From: a bacterium
Lineage (GTDB): Bacteria > UBP6 > JAFGXH01
Direction: 5' to 3'
DNA: 35,536 nt
NCBI GenBank assembly: GCA_027064085.1
Contig: JAMOQH010000135.1
Span: forward strand, 1 to 35,536
This document shows positions 8,379 to 28,486 of this stretch, in pieces (position 1 is the stretch's first letter; each line of letters begins with the position of its first letter). The notes under the pieces are model-generated. The model was not told where the DNA came from and searched no databases. It saw nothing but the letters and a program-made list of their open reading frames with translations. The position numbers were made by a program, and so were the translations under genes.

Positions 8379-10252
8379 GTTTTTTTGATAACTGTCTGGC
8401 CTGCTTTTAAAGTAATGTCTTTTATAAAAATGATTTTTCCATTTTTTATTATCTTTAAATTGAGCCTTTCATTACCATTAGATAAAGGATTAGGTTTAAT
8501 TTCATAATTATATTCTTTATAACTTCCTTTATAGTTATTATTTATAAAGATATCTCCAGCTTTAGTGTTTATTACTTTTAATTTCGCAGATTTCCATTTA
8601 AGCCTAATTGTTAAAGGTTTTACTTTTTTATTTTTATAAAATAAAGTTTGGGTATGTTTATAGCAACCAATAGAGCTTATTTTTAGTTTATATTTTTGAT
8701 TAGTTTTTAGCTTTATTTTATTTAAACTTCCATAGCCATATAATTTGTCGTTAATATAGATAGTTGCGGCTTTAGGGCTAATTCTAATTGGGATTTCAAT
8801 AGGAATACTTGTTATTTTCTTTTTTTTCTTTATTTTTTTATTATCTCCTTTTTTACTAGGATAAGCTGTCAGCCTATCCTTACTATGGTGGATATCATTA
8901 TATTTATTTATTTGATTTATTATTATTTTTTCAATGTTTTCATTTGGTAATATTATATTCTTAGGATAAGGTGCTTTTTTGACAGGATAAGCCATTGGCT
9001 TATCCTTGCTGTTAGCCTTATCCGGAGAAGCTTGTTTTTTGGTAGGATGTGTCACCTCTGTAGTAGGATGTGTCTCCTCTATAGTAGGATGAGTCACCTC
9101 TGTAGTAGGATGAGTCACCGACTCATCCTTACTAGGGTATTGTATTACTGAGTATATTACAGTTAATATTATTATCGCTATAGCTATAGGTATATATTTT
9201 TTTACTATATTTCCTCTTTCTATTTTTTTTATTATTTCTTTTGCTTTGGTATTTTCTGGTTCGTATTCTAGAGCGAGATATGCATAAGGTATGGATTTTG
9301 AAAATAACTTTTTTTTATATAGTTTTTCTGCATATTGTATATATTTTTCAGGGATATTATTTATAAATCTTTTGTGGTATGCATTTGGAGTTTTGAAATA
9401 TATTTCTAATTCTGTTTTATAGTCAAAATTTAAATTTTTAAAATAAGTTTCTATTTCCTCTATGATAGTATCACTTTCTTTATACCTTGTTAGTTTTGAT
9501 TTTTGAAGGATTTTTTTTATTATTGTTCTTATTTCATTTGAAATCAAAGGATTCAGTTTTTGAGGATTTTCAAATTGACATTTTAATATGTTATTTAGTA
9601 GCTGTGCTGTGTTTTTACCATCAAAAGGATAGGTTTTTGTTAGCATCCAATATAAAATTATTCCCAGTGAAAATATATCACTCTGTTTATCTATTTTTTC
9701 ATCTGTTAAGTGTTCAGGAGACATGAACATTGGAGAACCCATAATCGAGCCTGTTGTTGTAAGATTGTGAACTTCACCAATAATTGAGGCTATTCCAAAA
9801 TCCATAATTTTTATTTTACCATCTCTAGATATCATGATGTTTTCAGGTTTTATGTCTCTGTGGATAATGTTTTTTTGGTGTGTGTAATTTATTCCCTTTA
9901 GTATTTTTAAAAATATTGCAAGTATTAATTCAGGATTGTTTATTGGATTTTTATCTATAAAGTCGGATAGAGTATCTCCATCTATATATTCCATAACAAT
10001 ATAGTTGTTTTCATTTTTATTTACAAAATTATAGACATTAACAATGTTTTCATGGTTTATTCTTGCAATTGCTAGTGCCTCTCGTTTTAATCTTTCTCTG
10101 TTTTTTTCATCACTAGACATTGCAGGATGCAATAATTTAATGGCAACAAGTCTATCAAGATTTTTATCTTTTGCAAGATATACTGTTGACATACCTCCCT
10201 TTCCAATAGGTTTAATTATTTTGTAATTGTCATCATCTAAGTGAAAAGCCAT
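8375..10252 (-). CDS. Membrane Ser/Thr protein kinase with PEGA modules
   Basis: 625-aa Hanks-type kinase. The kinase domain spans about residues 10-270 with Gly loop GKGGMSTV, Lys39, HRD (131-133, 'IIHRDIKPENIM'), DFG (151-153) and SPE in place of APE (178-180); all catalytic residues are present. A TPR-like segment ('YLALEYEPENTKA') precedes one transmembrane helix (about 353-371). The outer part starts with a Pro/Thr-rich linker (374-468) built of SKDxxx(A/T)(Y/H)P and VTHPTTx repeats, then one or two PEGA-like units ('IRISPKAATIYINDKLYGYG', 'AGDIFINNNYKGS'). It probably senses the envelope and phosphorylates cytoplasmic proteins. A good AAGGAGG lies about 16 bases upstream of the ATG, inside the end of the preceding lipoprotein gene (2-bp gap), so translation is probably coupled. 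Confidence 0.9.
   Translation of the reverse strand: MAFHLDDDNYKIIKPIGKGGMSTVYLAKDKNLDRLVAIKLLHPAMSSDEKNRERLKREALAIARINHENIVNVYNFVNKNENNYIVMEYIDGDTLSDFIDKNPINNPELILAIFLKILKGINYTHQKNIIHRDIKPENIMISRDGKIKIMDFGIASIIGEVHNLTTTGSIMGSPMFMSPEHLTDEKIDKQSDIFSLGIILYWMLTKTYPFDGKNTAQLLNNILKCQFENPQKLNPLISNEIRTIIKKILQKSKLTRYKESDTIIEEIETYFKNLNFDYKTELEIYFKTPNAYHKRFINNIPEKYIQYAEKLYKKKLFSKSIPYAYLALEYEPENTKAKEIIKKIERGNIVKKYIPIAIAIIILTVIYSVIQYPSKDESVTHPTTEVTHPTIEETHPTTEVTHPTKKQASPDKANSKDKPMAYPVKKAPYPKNIILPNENIEKIIINQINKYNDIHHSKDRLTAYPSKKGDNKKIKKKKKITSIPIEIPIRISPKAATIYINDKLYGYGSLNKIKLKTNQKYKLKISSIGCYKHTQTLFYKNKKVKPLTIRLKWKSAKLKVINTKAGDIFINNNYKGSYKEYNYEIKPNPLSNGNERLNLKIIKNGKIIFIKDITLKAGQTVIKKT
8858..8880. repeat. 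23-bp coding palindrome, copy 1 (kinase gene)
   Basis: Plus-strand arms AGGATAAGCT and AGCCTATCCT around loop GTC: 10-3-10 architecture with one mismatch. In the coding (minus) direction it encodes SKDRLTAYP (kinase residues about 457-465). Confidence 0.75.
8984..9006. repeat. 23-bp coding palindrome, copy 2 (kinase gene)
   Basis: Plus-strand arms AGGATAAGCC and GGCTTATCCT around loop ATT; the 10-bp arms pair perfectly. It encodes SKDKPMAYP (residues about 415-423). A half copy (PDKANSKDK) adjoins it. Confidence 0.8.
9041..9129 (-). repeat. 21-bp tandem repeats encoding VTHPTTE in the kinase linker
   Basis: Four near-identical 21-bp units encode VTHPTTE, VTHPTIE, ETHPTTE and VTHPTKK just outside the membrane helix. 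The first unit grows out of the 23-bp palindrome at 9107-9129. Confidence 0.85.
9107..9129. repeat. 23-bp coding palindrome, copy 3 (kinase gene)
   Basis: Arms AGGATGAGTC and GACTCATCCT, loop ACC on the plus strand; pairing is perfect. It encodes SKDESVTHP (residues about 374-382). In coding orientation the 23-mer and its flanks (32 bp in all) are identical to copy 4 in the TPR gene 2.5 kb away. Confidence 0.85.
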
Positions 10253-11081: not shown

Positions 11082-12491
11082 TTGAAAAATATTATTTTAA
11101 TATCAGTTTATATACTTTCTTTTAATGTATTTGCTGTTCATCCTGCAGTTGTTACTGGCAATGAATATCTTAAAGTTAAAGACTATGAAAATGCTTATAA
11201 AAGCTATTCTTCTGTTTTAGTTGAAGATGCTAAAGATAAAAGTGCATTGTATGGTAAATCTTACACTTTATTTAAAATGAAAAAATATAAAGAAGCATTA
11301 AATTCTTTTGAGCAACTACTAAAAATAGATAGAAATTTTAGAGATTCTTTATATAGAACAGCCTTTTTATACAGAAAAGTTAAAAATTATGATAAAGCTA
11401 TAGAATACTACAAAGAATACTTAAAGCAAGTGAAAGATGACCCCGATAGTTATTATGGTTTAGCTAGAACGCATGAGCAAAAAAATGATACTGTTGGAGC
11501 AACTTACTATTTTTATCTTTATACAATAAAAGAAACTCGCTCTTCTGAAGATAAATGGGTTAAAAAAGCTCAAAAGAAAATAGAAAAATACAGAGCTAAA
11601 TTTACTCCAGAACAACAAAAACAATATGAATCTCTTATAAACAATAGTAGTAAGGATGAGTCGGTGACTCATCCTACTACAACGGTGACTCCTTCTGCTA
11701 CAACAGTGACTCATCCTACTACAACGGTGACTCCTTCTGTTACAACGGTGACTCCTTCTACTAAGAAAGTTACTCCTAAAGATGCTTTAAATATTCCTAA
11801 ATTAGATAAAAATGCTAAAAAAGTAGAAACATCAACAGATAAAAACTTAAATTATATTTTTATGAAAGGTGTTAAGTCTGATGATTTTTATTTAAATAAA
11901 AAATATAATGATGCTATTATTGAATATAGAAAATACTTAAAAGACCCATTGAAAAGAAGAGAAGGTTTATATAAAATGGCAATTTGTAATGCTTTACTTA
12001 AAAAATATTCAACATCAGTAAAACTTCTTTCTCAAATTATACTTGAAGAAGAGGGAAATAATAAAGTAAGAGAGTTATTAAAATTGTTACTTGTTAATAA
12101 ATCTGTTGTAAGTTCTTTAAAAGATGCTGATTCTTCTATTAAAAATAAAATAGGAATGGGAAAAGTTAATGAATTAATTACAAGAGGAGATTATTATGAG
12201 GCAATTAAAATTCTTGATATATTAAGTGCTAACATTAAAAATAATAGTGGAGCATTATTCTATAAAATCGATTTATTAAGGATTTTATCTAAAAATAAAG
12301 AAATTGAAGAAAATCTAAAGTCTTTTTTATCCATTTATCCTGATAATGTACTTGTTAATGAAAAATATGGAGATTTCTTAGCTTCTCAACATAAAAAAGC
12401 TGAAGCACTTAAATATTATAAAATTGCTATTTCTAAAACTACTGATAAAGAAATAAAATCAAGATTAGAAACTAAAACATCATCTAAATGA
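11082..12491 (+). CDS. Secreted TPR protein with Pro/Thr repeat linker
   Basis: 469 aa from the TTG at 11082. This start follows GGAGGA at a good distance and gives a clean signal peptide (MKNIILISVYILSFNVFA); the ORF-track GTG start lies next to the promoter's -10 box. The first half has about four TPRs ('YEKVKDYENAYKSYSSVLVEDAKDK'-like, 'YKEALNSFEQLLKIDRNF', 'YDKAIEYYKEYLKQVKDDPD'). A Thr/Pro-rich linker (about residues 190-230) is made of one SKDESVTHP palindrome product and 7-aa repeats. The second half has more TPR-like helices. It probably acts as a periplasmic scaffold. The linker is shared with the divergent kinase, so the two may have exchanged DNA or be partners. It overlaps the next gene by 4 bp (ATGA). 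Confidence 0.8.
   Translation: MKNIILISVYILSFNVFAVHPAVVTGNEYLKVKDYENAYKSYSSVLVEDAKDKSALYGKSYTLFKMKKYKEALNSFEQLLKIDRNFRDSLYRTAFLYRKVKNYDKAIEYYKEYLKQVKDDPDSYYGLARTHEQKNDTVGATYYFYLYTIKETRSSEDKWVKKAQKKIEKYRAKFTPEQQKQYESLINNSSKDESVTHPTTTVTPSATTVTHPTTTVTPSVTTVTPSTKKVTPKDALNIPKLDKNAKKVETSTDKNLNYIFMKGVKSDDFYLNKKYNDAIIEYRKYLKDPLKRREGLYKMAICNALLKKYSTSVKLLSQIILEEEGNNKVRELLKLLLVNKSVVSSLKDADSSIKNKIGMGKVNELITRGDYYEAIKILDILSANIKNNSGALFYKIDLLRILSKNKEIEENLKSFLSIYPDNVLVNEKYGDFLASQHKKAEALKYYKIAISKTTDKEIKSRLETKTSSK
11653..11675. repeat. 23-bp coding palindrome, copy 4 (TPR gene)
   Basis: Arms AGGATGAGTC and GACTCATCCT around loop GGT; perfect 10-bp pairing. It encodes SKDESVTHP in the same frame as the kinase copies and is identical to kinase copy 3 in coding orientation. 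Confidence 0.85.
11664..11768 (+). repeat. 21-bp tandem repeats encoding VTHPTTT/VTPSxTT
   Basis: Five 21-bp units beginning GTGACTC encode VTHPTTT, VTPSATT, VTHPTTT, VTPSVTT and VTPSTKK, with 'HPTT' and 'PSxT' types alternating. The first overlaps the palindrome's right arm. Confidence 0.85.
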
Positions 12492-25032: not shown

Positions 25033-25143
25033 AATTTTAAATATTGAAAAATAAAAGATCGTGTATATATTAATAATTGTAGGAATATTATTTTATATCC
25101 ATGAATACAGGTTTAAAACTTGTTTTATTGTAACGGAGGGAAA

Positions 25144-25578
25144 ATGGAAAAAATAAAAGTGGCTTGTCCAGCTTGTGGTGCGTTGAATATGGTTGCAAAT
25201 ACTAGTAATTTAGCTAAAGCTAATTGTGGAAAATGTCAACATGACTTGCTTGATAATAGTCCTGTAATTTTAAATGCAAAAAATTATGATAAATTTACAG
25301 TAAAGAGTGATTTGCCTATAGTTGTTGATTTTTGGGCAGAATGGTGTGCTCCATGTAGAATGATGGCTCCTAATTTTAAAGAAGCAAGTAAATCTTTTGT
25401 AATGAAAGCGAAATTTGGCAAACTAGATACAGAGGCAAATCCTAATATTGCAGGGCGTTATGGTATTAGGGGAATACCAACTATGATAGTTTTTAAGCAT
25501 GGTAAAGAATTAGGAAGAATTTCAGGTGCTTTACCTACTAATCAGATAATTTCATGGCTTAATGATGTTATTAAATAA
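25144..25578 (+). CDS. trxC: Thioredoxin 2 (TrxC-type) with zinc ribbon
   Basis: 144 aa from ATG 25144, chosen because GGAGG immediately precedes it; the ORF-track start (25120) includes the ribosome binding site. An N-terminal zinc-finger CPAC (Cys8, Cys11) and CGKC (Cys28, Cys31) is followed by a thioredoxin fold with active site WCAPC (Cys68, Cys71) and 'RGIPTMIVF' cis-Pro. It is a cytoplasmic disulfide reductase often linked to oxidative stress. It is flanked by non-coding gaps on both sides, so it appears monocistronic. Confidence 0.92.
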   Translation: MEKIKVACPACGALNMVANTSNLAKANCGKCQHDLLDNSPVILNAKNYDKFTVKSDLPIVVDFWAEWCAPCRMMAPNFKEASKSFVMKAKFGKLDTEANPNIAGRYGIRGIPTMIVFKHGKELGRISGALPTNQIISWLNDVIK

Positions 25579-25707: not shown

Positions 25708-25738
25708 ATTAAAGATTTTTAACTTTTGAGGGGTTTAT

Positions 25739-28486
25739 ATGAAAAAACTTGTTTTATGGCTAATTTTATCACTTTCTTTTAGTTTGTTTGTATCTTGTGG
25801 TGGTGATGACTCTAATGTAGATTATTGTAAAGCTAATCCTTGTAAAGATAGTCCTATTGCACATAAAACTAAATGTGTAGTTACAGATAGTGATTATAAT
25901 TGTGTTTGTGAAGATGGATATATGGCAGATGGAGCAGGTTGTAAACTAGAAGAAGTAACACCTTGTAATCCAAATCCGTGTACGGAAACTAACAAAACTG
26001 TTTGTAAAGAAACTGGAACAAGTGCAAATGATTACATTTGTGAATGTGATAGTGAATATTATGATAATAATGGTACTTGTACACTTGAAGCTAAATGTGA
26101 AGCTGATTCTTGTACAGAAACCAATAAAACTAAATGTTCTATTGTAAATCATGAAGTAAAATGCTCATGTGATAATGGTTTTATTGATAATAATGGAACT
26201 TGCGAAGAAGCTCAAACGGCTTGTGTTGTTACTAAAGGAACAAATAATAATACATTAGTAGTTGGAACTATTTTAATGGAAGATAAAGATTTAGCTTCAG
26301 GAGAATTAGTTTATGACAACAATGGTAAAATAATTTGTGTAGGGGCCGATTGTTCTAGTAAATCTAATGGTGCAACTATTATAAATTGTGGAACTAATGT
26401 TGTATCTCCTTCTTTGATTAATGCCCATGACCATATTTCATATACACAAAATGACCCTTCAAATTGGGGTACTGAAAGATATGAACATAGACATCAATGG
26501 AGAAAAGGCTTAAATGGACATACAAAAATTCCAGCAAGTGGTGGAGCAAGTGAAGACCAACAAGCTTGGGGGGAATTAAGAAACTTAATGGCTGGTGCAA
26601 CCGTTATGGCAGGAAGTGGAGGAGCCAATGGTTTCTTAAGAAATGTTGATAGAGGTAAAAATGATGGTATTAAGCTAAATGGTGTTAAATATAATACTTT
26701 CCCATTAGGTGATAGTAGTGGAACAATGATTACTAGTGGTTGTGGTTATAGTTTTAGAGATACAGAAAGCGTTTTAAGTAATCATTGTTATTTACCTCAT
26801 GTTGCAGAAGGAATAAATAAGGCCGCAAGAAATGAGTTTTTATGTGTAAGCTCCACAAATAACGGAGGGCATGATTTAACAGAAGCAAACTCAGCTTTTG
26901 TTCATATGGTTGGAACAAACGCAACTGATGGAAAAGTTATGGCAGATGAACATGCTGCTGTAATTTGGTCTCCAAGGTCCAATATTTCATTATATGGAAA
27001 TACGGCTCAAATACCTATGTATTATAACCAAGGTGTATTAGTAGGCTTAGGTACTGATTGGACTCCATCAGGTTCTATTAACATGCTAAGAGAATTACAG
27101 TGTGTTGATTATTTAAATAAAAATCATTACAACAATTATTTAACAGATAAACAAATATGGGAATTAGCTACAAGAAATAATGCAGAAGCATTATTAATTT
27201 CTGATACTATTGGTATTTTGAAAGAGGGTAGAGTTGCTGATATCGCTGTTTATGCTTTAAATGATGCTCCAAATCCTTATAGAGCAGTAATAGACGCTAA
27301 AATGAACGATGTTTTACTTGTTATTAAAGGTGGTAAACCTGTATATGGTGATAGTGATATTATGAGTCAATTTTCTTCAACTAGTGACTGTGATAATATT
27401 GGTAATGTTTGTGGAGTGGTTAAAACCCTATGTACTAAACATGAAATAGGCAAGAGTTTTTCAGCTTTAAAGAGTGCAAATTCTTCTTCTTATGATTTAT
27501 TTTTCTGTGGAGTACCAGCAGGTGAGCCAAGTTGTAAGCCTATGAGACCACAAGAATATAATGGCGATTTAGCAGGAAGTGATAGAGATGGTGACGGAGT
27601 AGAAGATAATAACGATAATTGTATTGATATTTTTAATCCAATTAGGCCTATGGATAATGGACACCAAGCTGATGTTGACAATGATGGAATTGGTGATGCT
27701 TGTGATAAATGTCCTACAATAGAAGGTGAGGTATCATGCTCTCCTAAATCCCCTTATGATAAAGATGATGATGGTATAGGAAGTGATGATAATTGCCCAA
27801 CTGTTTCAAATTCAGACCAGGTTGATAGTGATGATGATGGAAAAGGTGATGTATGTGATGCGTGTCCAAATATTGCAAACCCAGGTGATATGGGGTGTCC
27901 TGCAAGTATTCAAGATGTAAAACAAAAAACATTGCCACTTGGCTCAACCGTTACAATTAAAGGATATGTAACAGGAATAGATAGTGCTCATAGTGATAAT
28001 TTATTTGTTCAGTTGTCAAAAGAAGACCAAAATAGCAGTTTAAAAGAGAAGTTTAGTGGTATTTATGTCTATAAAAGTGGAAACAGTAGTTTAGCAATAG
28101 GTGATTTTGTAACTGTAACAGGAACAAGTAAAGAATTTTATGGTCAAATAGAGCTTGCTAATGTTACGGAAGCTAAAAAATTAACAGCAGAAGGAACTAT
28201 GCCTAATCCTATTGTTGTAAATCCAGGTGATATTAAAACAGGTGCTGGTTTGGCTAGTGCCTATGAAGGTGTTTTGGTAAAAGTTGAAAATGTATCAGTA
28301 TTAACCGTTGACCCTGACCAATATAGTAAATTAGAAGTAACTGGTGACTTATATATAGGTAAGATGATGTATACTATAACTGCAAGTGTTGGAGATAGCT
28401 TTTCTTCAATTACAGGGATTCTAAGATATCAAAGAGAAAACAGTAAACTTGAGCCAAGAAGTGCTTCTGATGTTGTTGCTCAATAA
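25739..28486 (+). CDS. Surface lipoprotein amidohydrolase with EGF-like and TSP3 repeats
   Basis: 915 aa with lipobox FVSC (Cys20) after a signal peptide. Residues about 30-160 hold three EGF-like Cys modules ('CNPNPCTETNKTVC' type). Residues about 165-560 are an amidohydrolase of the TRZ/ATZ chlorohydrolase type: metal-site HxH in 'INAHDHIS' (about 229-231), 'HVAEG' (about 354), 'FVHMVGT' (about 389) and 'GLGTDWTPSGS' (Asp about 440). All expected ligands are present, so it is probably active on an amide, ester or deaminated substrate outside the inner membrane. Thrombospondin type 3 calcium repeats follow ('DRDGDGVEDNNDNC', 'DNDGIGDACDKCP', 'DSDDDGKGDVCDACP'), then an OB-fold-like tail ('GSTVTIKGYVTGI...GDFVTVTGTSKEFYGQIEL'). 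The substrate is unknown. Confidence 0.85.
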   Translation: MKKLVLWLILSLSFSLFVSCGGDDSNVDYCKANPCKDSPIAHKTKCVVTDSDYNCVCEDGYMADGAGCKLEEVTPCNPNPCTETNKTVCKETGTSANDYICECDSEYYDNNGTCTLEAKCEADSCTETNKTKCSIVNHEVKCSCDNGFIDNNGTCEEAQTACVVTKGTNNNTLVVGTILMEDKDLASGELVYDNNGKIICVGADCSSKSNGATIINCGTNVVSPSLINAHDHISYTQNDPSNWGTERYEHRHQWRKGLNGHTKIPASGGASEDQQAWGELRNLMAGATVMAGSGGANGFLRNVDRGKNDGIKLNGVKYNTFPLGDSSGTMITSGCGYSFRDTESVLSNHCYLPHVAEGINKAARNEFLCVSSTNNGGHDLTEANSAFVHMVGTNATDGKVMADEHAAVIWSPRSNISLYGNTAQIPMYYNQGVLVGLGTDWTPSGSINMLRELQCVDYLNKNHYNNYLTDKQIWELATRNNAEALLISDTIGILKEGRVADIAVYALNDAPNPYRAVIDAKMNDVLLVIKGGKPVYGDSDIMSQFSSTSDCDNIGNVCGVVKTLCTKHEIGKSFSALKSANSSSYDLFFCGVPAGEPSCKPMRPQEYNGDLAGSDRDGDGVEDNNDNCIDIFNPIRPMDNGHQADVDNDGIGDACDKCPTIEGEVSCSPKSPYDKDDDGIGSDDNCPTVSNSDQVDSDDDGKGDVCDACPNIANPGDMGCPASIQDVKQKTLPLGSTVTIKGYVTGIDSAHSDNLFVQLSKEDQNSSLKEKFSGIYVYKSGNSSLAIGDFVTVTGTSKEFYGQIELANVTEAKKLTAEGTMPNPIVVNPGDIKTGAGLASAYEGVLVKVENVSVLTVDPDQYSKLEVTGDLYIGKMMYTITASVGDSFSSITGILRYQRENSKLEPRSASDVVAQ

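Follow-up and report, generated by a model that had tools for sequence, protein, structure and literature searches.

The gene at positions 25739-28486 of the window (the whole stretch of 35,536 nucleotides that was analysed) appears to encode a lipid-anchored metal-dependent hydrolase, which is probably located outside the cell. It belongs to a widespread but apparently uncharacterised, conserved subfamily of the known amidohydrolase superfamily that occurs among myxobacteria and in an uncultured phylum related to them. Alignments of this family indicate that the enzyme core and a C-terminal tail of thrombospondin type 3 (TSP3) repeats and OB barrels are nearly constant, while the stalk between lipid and enzyme changes by lineage and is EGF-like here. 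The open reading frame is complete, with 915 codons for amino acids, an ATG start at 25739 and no internal stop. All of the following features lie on the forward strand.

25728-25733, forward strand: probable ribosome-binding site GAGGGG (Shine-Dalgarno-like), read directly from the sequence
25739-28486, forward strand: complete open reading frame of the lipoprotein amidohydrolase, to which a Myxococcus homologue aligns co-linearly over residues 20-912 with 39% identity
25739-25798, forward strand: signal peptide (residues 1-19) and lipobox cysteine C20, LFVSC
25826-25942, forward strand: EGF-like module 1, residues 30-68, six-Cys pattern
25964-26080, forward strand: EGF-like module 2, residues 76-114, six-Cys pattern
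26096-26203, forward strand: EGF-like module 3, residues 120-155, six-Cys pattern
26219-27373, forward strand: amidohydrolase core, about residues 161-545 (Pfam Amidohydro_1/3, AlphaFold2, Foldseek)
26426-26434, forward strand: predicted metal ligands H230-D-H232 in strand 1, both His invariant in 82/82 cores
26798-26809, forward strand: H354-x-x-E357 in strand 5, predicted metal ligand and catalytic Glu, both invariant in 82/82 cores
26903-26905, forward strand: metal-site H389 in strand 6, present in 81/82 cores, with one Gln
27056-27058, forward strand: predicted metal ligand D440 in GTDW..SGS, strand 8, invariant in 82/82 cores
27374-27553, forward strand: family-specific Cys-rich cap, residues 546-605 (C551, C558, C565, C590 and C599, each in 80-81 of 82 cores)
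27563-27871, forward strand: TSP3 calcium-binding repeats with FNPIRP motif, about residues 609-711 (Pfam TSP_3, alignment)
27947-28180, forward strand: OB-fold barrel 1, about residues 737-814 (model strands, fold search, 9sf8/9sf9 profile match)
28274-28453, forward strand: OB-like barrel 2, about residues 846-905 (model strands, tandem-OB HIN-200 among the top folds)

Conservation was evaluated in 82 aligned cores, in 34 full-length proteins and, for the tail, in about 80 relatives. A preliminary description had read from the window a lipobox, three Cys-rich EGF-like modules, a complete metal site, TSP3 repeats and an OB-fold-like tail, and each of these elements was recovered. The lipobox is present as LFVSC20, and its cysteine is invariant in all 34 aligned full-length relatives. 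The window protein matched Pfam Amidohydro_1 with an E-value of 8.9e-14 (51.9 bits against a gathering score of 25) and Amidohydro_3 above the cut-off (4.7e-08), and Amidohydro_1 was matched by all 34 family members. H230, H232, H354, E357, H389 and D440 are all in place. The loss of ligands in relatives, named beforehand as an observation that would refute the proposal, was not seen across the aligned cores, in which a single H389Q exchange occurs, and this invariance rules out a degenerate active site. The full-length AlphaFold2 model showed a pLDDT of >90 over most of residues 161-915, and Foldseek searches with the core model retrieved triazine hydrolase and MTA/adenosine, guanine and isocytosine deaminases with E-values down to 2e-17. 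The structure prediction of the pocket that had been suggested recovered the amidohydrolase barrel, and the metal ligands are predicted to converge on the barrel site, as judged from the model fold together with the alignment. In addition, 12 core cysteines are invariant or nearly so, which is consistent with folding in an oxidising compartment. No Pfam domain was found in the Cys-rich cap (residues 546-605).

The assignment to the TRZ/ATZ type in the preliminary description stood as far as the nearest named neighbourhood is concerned, but the NCBIfam cut-offs were missed by a wide margin. The TRZ/ATZ, MTA/SAH, guanine and 8-oxoguanine deaminase equivalogs were all rejected on this ground, the best score being 71.6 against 522 bits (PRK07228). 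Guanine deaminases carry an HxHxPQ motif after strand 1, whereas the window protein reads HDHISYTQ and PQ is absent at that site in the family alignment; substrate-binding signatures of named deaminases could not be recognised in the protein. The family has instead a stretch of its own after HxH, ERYEHRHxWR, and a GTDW motif. COG0402-type amidohydrolases (MTA/SAH deaminases such as 4gbd/4dyk, guanine and 8-oxoguanine/isocytosine deaminases, the atrazine chlorohydrolase AtzA, and TrzN) share with it the barrel fold, the HxH / H-xx-E / H / D site and the SN and GTD motifs. However, identity to them is only 13-20%, and the window family adds the ERYEHRHxWR loop, GTDW, the 12 conserved cysteines, the Cys-rich cap, the lipid anchor, the TSP3 repeats and the OB tail.

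The three EGF-like modules were recognised by their six-Cys spacing. When residues 21-160 were shuffled 20,000 times, no shuffle reached three non-overlapping patterns of this kind, and 9 reached two. The Pfam search listed no EGF model for the window protein, while similar modules elsewhere in the same genome scored near or above the Pfam cut-off. Residues 17-157, which contain the EGF part, showed low pLDDT in the full-length AlphaFold2 model because few homologues cover this region. It had been proposed that the enzyme is held away from the membrane on a stalk stabilised by both disulfides and calcium. The EGF modules do lie between lipid and enzyme, but the TSP3 calcium repeats follow the enzyme on its C-terminal side. 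This leaves the EGF modules as the only part that can keep the enzyme off the membrane, and the domain order rules out the TSP3 repeats as part of the stalk. Nor does the EGF stalk, although present here, define the family. In most relatives the spacer consists of Asp/Thr-, Glu/Pro-, Gly/Pro- or Asn-rich sequence or of DUF4215 repeats, and its length ranges from tens to about 400 residues. The phylogenetic tree placed the three EGF proteins from the window's family in one supported group, and an EGF pattern recurs once elsewhere.

A search of the same genome for EGF-like modules showed that they recur on at least 14 other proteins, joined to various other domains. These further proteins with EGF-like six-Cys modules (L146-L159 of genome G000, on contigs C172, C101, C122, C187, C141, C106, C108, C170, C95, C75, C61 and C14) are mostly lipoproteins, with a recognisable signal sequence and cysteine in most of them and with the EGF modules close to the N-terminus. 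Their partner domains include EEP nuclease, Endonuclease I, EEP with GH19 chitinase, M64 peptidase, lamin tail domain and beta-propeller. The EGF modules thus look like a general lipoprotein display device in the window genome, resembling a genome-wide surface display kit.

At the other end of the protein, the TSP3 block of the window protein scored below the Pfam cut-off (21 against 25 bits), whereas 33 of the 34 family members matched TSP_3, several of them well above the cut-off (up to 52.6 bits), and the signature positions of the block are invariant among the 34 full-length proteins. Where ordinary TSP3 repeats carry NPxQ, this block (27563-27871) has the variant FNPIRP, which is near-constant across the family. 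The DxDxDG calcium repeats with CP/NPxQ motifs are like those of the TSP3 wire of thrombospondins and COMP; unlike them, the window protein has two short repeat blocks and the FNPIRP motif, joined to an enzyme. The tail gave only weak matches to Pfam, and clearly matched secreted nucleases of the ExeM/NucH type in their N-terminal region; its profile matched the solved chains 9sf8/9sf9, which are secreted EEP nucleases, with an E-value of 2.2e-7. Modelled alone, it formed two five-stranded barrels (pLDDT 96.6), for which the best Foldseek matches were OB folds (tandem-OB HIN-200, YgiW, Ten1 and RPA). The OB tail is present in 69 of about 80 relatives and is acidic (net charge -4 in the window protein, family median -11), which speaks against simple, direct binding of nucleic acid. 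In three relatives (L072, L073 and L080), the best OB-pair match lies N-terminal to the enzyme (about residues 142-362), as an extra or moved copy. A lamin tail domain was found in 24 of the 34 full-length relatives. In ExeM, the two-OB region is required for nuclease activity (PMC6085458). The ExeM/NucH/Xds secreted nucleases resemble the window family in carrying a two-OB region and a lamin tail domain as accessories of an exported enzyme; they differ in having an EEP nuclease as the catalytic domain where the window family has an amidohydrolase, and the OB tail of the latter is C-terminal and acidic. The alignments mark the TSP3 repeats and the OB pair as a distal module common to the whole family and part of its constant unit.

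To describe the distribution of the family, the core was searched in 61 genomes, comprising 28 of the window's own phylum (UBP6 relatives, the window genome included), one 9-Mb myxobacterium and 32 others. It was found in 27 of the 28 genomes of the phylum, usually in one copy, with relatives showing 51-61% identity, and in two copies in the myxobacterium (45-48% identity). The remaining 32 genomes yielded a single, distant match (28% identity). A scan of GTDB recovered at least 317 loci, of which the best 80 were mostly labelled Myxococcota/'Deltaproteobacteria' or UBP6-like MAGs, and a strict profile found a family member in 98 of 156 Myxococcota genomes. In one myxobacterial genome (G128, C1 2946557-2947911, L168), the gene is split over two frames, as a probable pseudogene or sequencing error. 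In the literature searched, no paper was found that describes an amidohydrolase carrying a TSP3 or a lamin tail domain.

The neighbours of the gene in the window encode ordinary proteins (thioredoxin, AA_kinase, kelch-like, ABC/MlaE). The thioredoxin gene immediately upstream (25120-25578) encodes an N-terminal CxxC...CxxC stretch and does not recur as a neighbour at the other loci examined. Beyond close relatives, no conserved gene neighbourhood that would name a pathway was found, and operon or pathway inference was dropped since neighbours recur among close relatives only. A plasmid-borne origin was rejected because the plasmid matches were ordinary amidohydrolases only, with 23-31% identity. 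No RNA family or tRNA was found in the 35,536-nt window. Two 21-base tandem repeats that would encode heptapeptide repeats lie inside other open reading frames, one in a Ser/Thr kinase on the reverse strand (9042-9119) and one in a TPR protein on the forward strand (11662-11763).

A complete Myxococcus-type genome (G162) carries a family member at 1.064 Mb; the genes after it encode a TetR protein, a phosphoesterase of the calcineurin-like type and a protein with RCC1 repeats. In this family member, which is the homologue that aligns co-linearly with the window protein at 39% identity, DUF4215 repeats replace the EGF modules of the window protein, and a lamin tail domain is added at the C terminus. 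Vesicle proteomics published in 2014 described MXAN_0886 of M. xanthus as a 'metal dependent amidohydrolase' and MXAN_0889 as an RCC1-repeat protein, and reported an enrichment of MXAN_0886 of >65-fold in outer-membrane vesicles relative to membrane (PMC4158809). Because the three-gene spacing and the map position fit the order in G162, MXAN_0886 is very probably the orthologue of the window family, a match made by gene order and not by comparison of its own sequence. Its enrichment in vesicles supports export to the outer membrane but does not by itself fix leaflet or topology; the protein is presumably exposed at the surface and its substrate extracellular. Another 'amidohydrolase', MXAN_0075, has been reported from the extracellular matrix of M. 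xanthus (PMC3222651) but could not be connected with the window family.

On these grounds, we consider it rather probable that the protein is a lipid-anchored, disulfide-stabilised surface metalloenzyme with chemistry of the aminohydrolase/deaminase type on a small cyclic amide or amidine. The fold matches to nucleobase and nucleoside deaminases and triazine hydrolases argue for this reading, as does the swapping of spacer types between lineages while the core stays. We infer the surface location, the metal number, the reaction and the substrate as follows. The enzyme would work beyond the inner membrane; its most likely sites are shed vesicles and the outer membrane, where it would sit on the outer face. 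The EGF modules would form a rigid spacer from lipid to enzyme. The barrel would hold one divalent metal through H230, H232, H354 and D440; H389 would also lie at the site, and E357 and the metal would activate water for hydrolysis of a C-N bond. Since the ligand set and the HxxE pair are as in mononuclear amidohydrolases, a small cyclic amide or amidine would be the best-supported target of this hydrolysis. The Cys-rich cap and a calcium-loaded TSP3 block may stabilise the enzyme and fix the distal pair of OB barrels, which may in turn place the enzyme on a partner or a matrix outside the cell.

The amidohydrolase superfamily also includes enzymes of the peptidase/acylase type. The window protein might accordingly hydrolyse extracellular amides (acyl-amino acids, dipeptides, lactams or acyl-homoserine-type compounds) for predation or nutrient capture and deaminate no heterocycle, and the many invariant Arg and His residues in the loop after HxH could bind a carboxylate, while the other surface hydrolases of the same genome include an M64 peptidase and a chitinase. 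However, its sequence and fold neighbours are all deaminases, chlorohydrolases or imidazolonepropionase, and the HxxE pair of strand 5 is the deaminase arrangement, so that amide hydrolysis of this kind seems unlikely to us. A location facing the periplasm, where the enzyme would act on an imported or periplasmic metabolite and the spacer would merely clear the membrane or peptidoglycan, appears comparably doubtful. The leaflet cannot be read from the lipobox by itself, and the periplasm is likewise oxidising; against this, the spacers vary widely in type and in length, EGF, TSP3, DUF4215 and lamin tail domains are typical of exported proteins, nucleases and chitinase are displayed in the same way, and the probable orthologue is enriched in vesicles, although this does not fix its topology (PMC4158809). 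A large, matrix-like multidomain architecture and the absence of a pathway context would also fit a catalytically inert surface adhesin or matrix scaffold that reuses an old barrel, but the retention of ligands and catalytic Glu over wide divergence in 82/82 cores, with the single H389Q, makes this highly improbable.

For the surface metalloenzyme that we favour, the ExeM-type OB pair, the lamin tail domain and the presence of nucleases on the same EGF stalks point to substrates of the nucleobase type. A nucleobase-like heterocycle freed by the digestion of nucleic acid at the surface is therefore a possible substrate, which we propose tentatively because the acidic tail speaks against direct nucleic-acid binding. 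More speculative still is that an ancient and hitherto undescribed surface family of Myxococcota and relatives combined nuclease accessories with a deaminase-type core, and that, both on the cell surface and on vesicles, it might process extracellular nucleobases or modify the bases of nucleic acid outside the cell.

Predatory myxobacteria and an uncultured phylum share this conserved exported enzyme, which is usually encoded once per genome and whose probable orthologue in M. xanthus is strongly enriched in vesicles. It illustrates a modular principle in which a constant enzyme-TSP3-OB unit is carried on interchangeable lipoprotein stalks, and EGF-like modules appear to serve as a display device across one bacterial genome.
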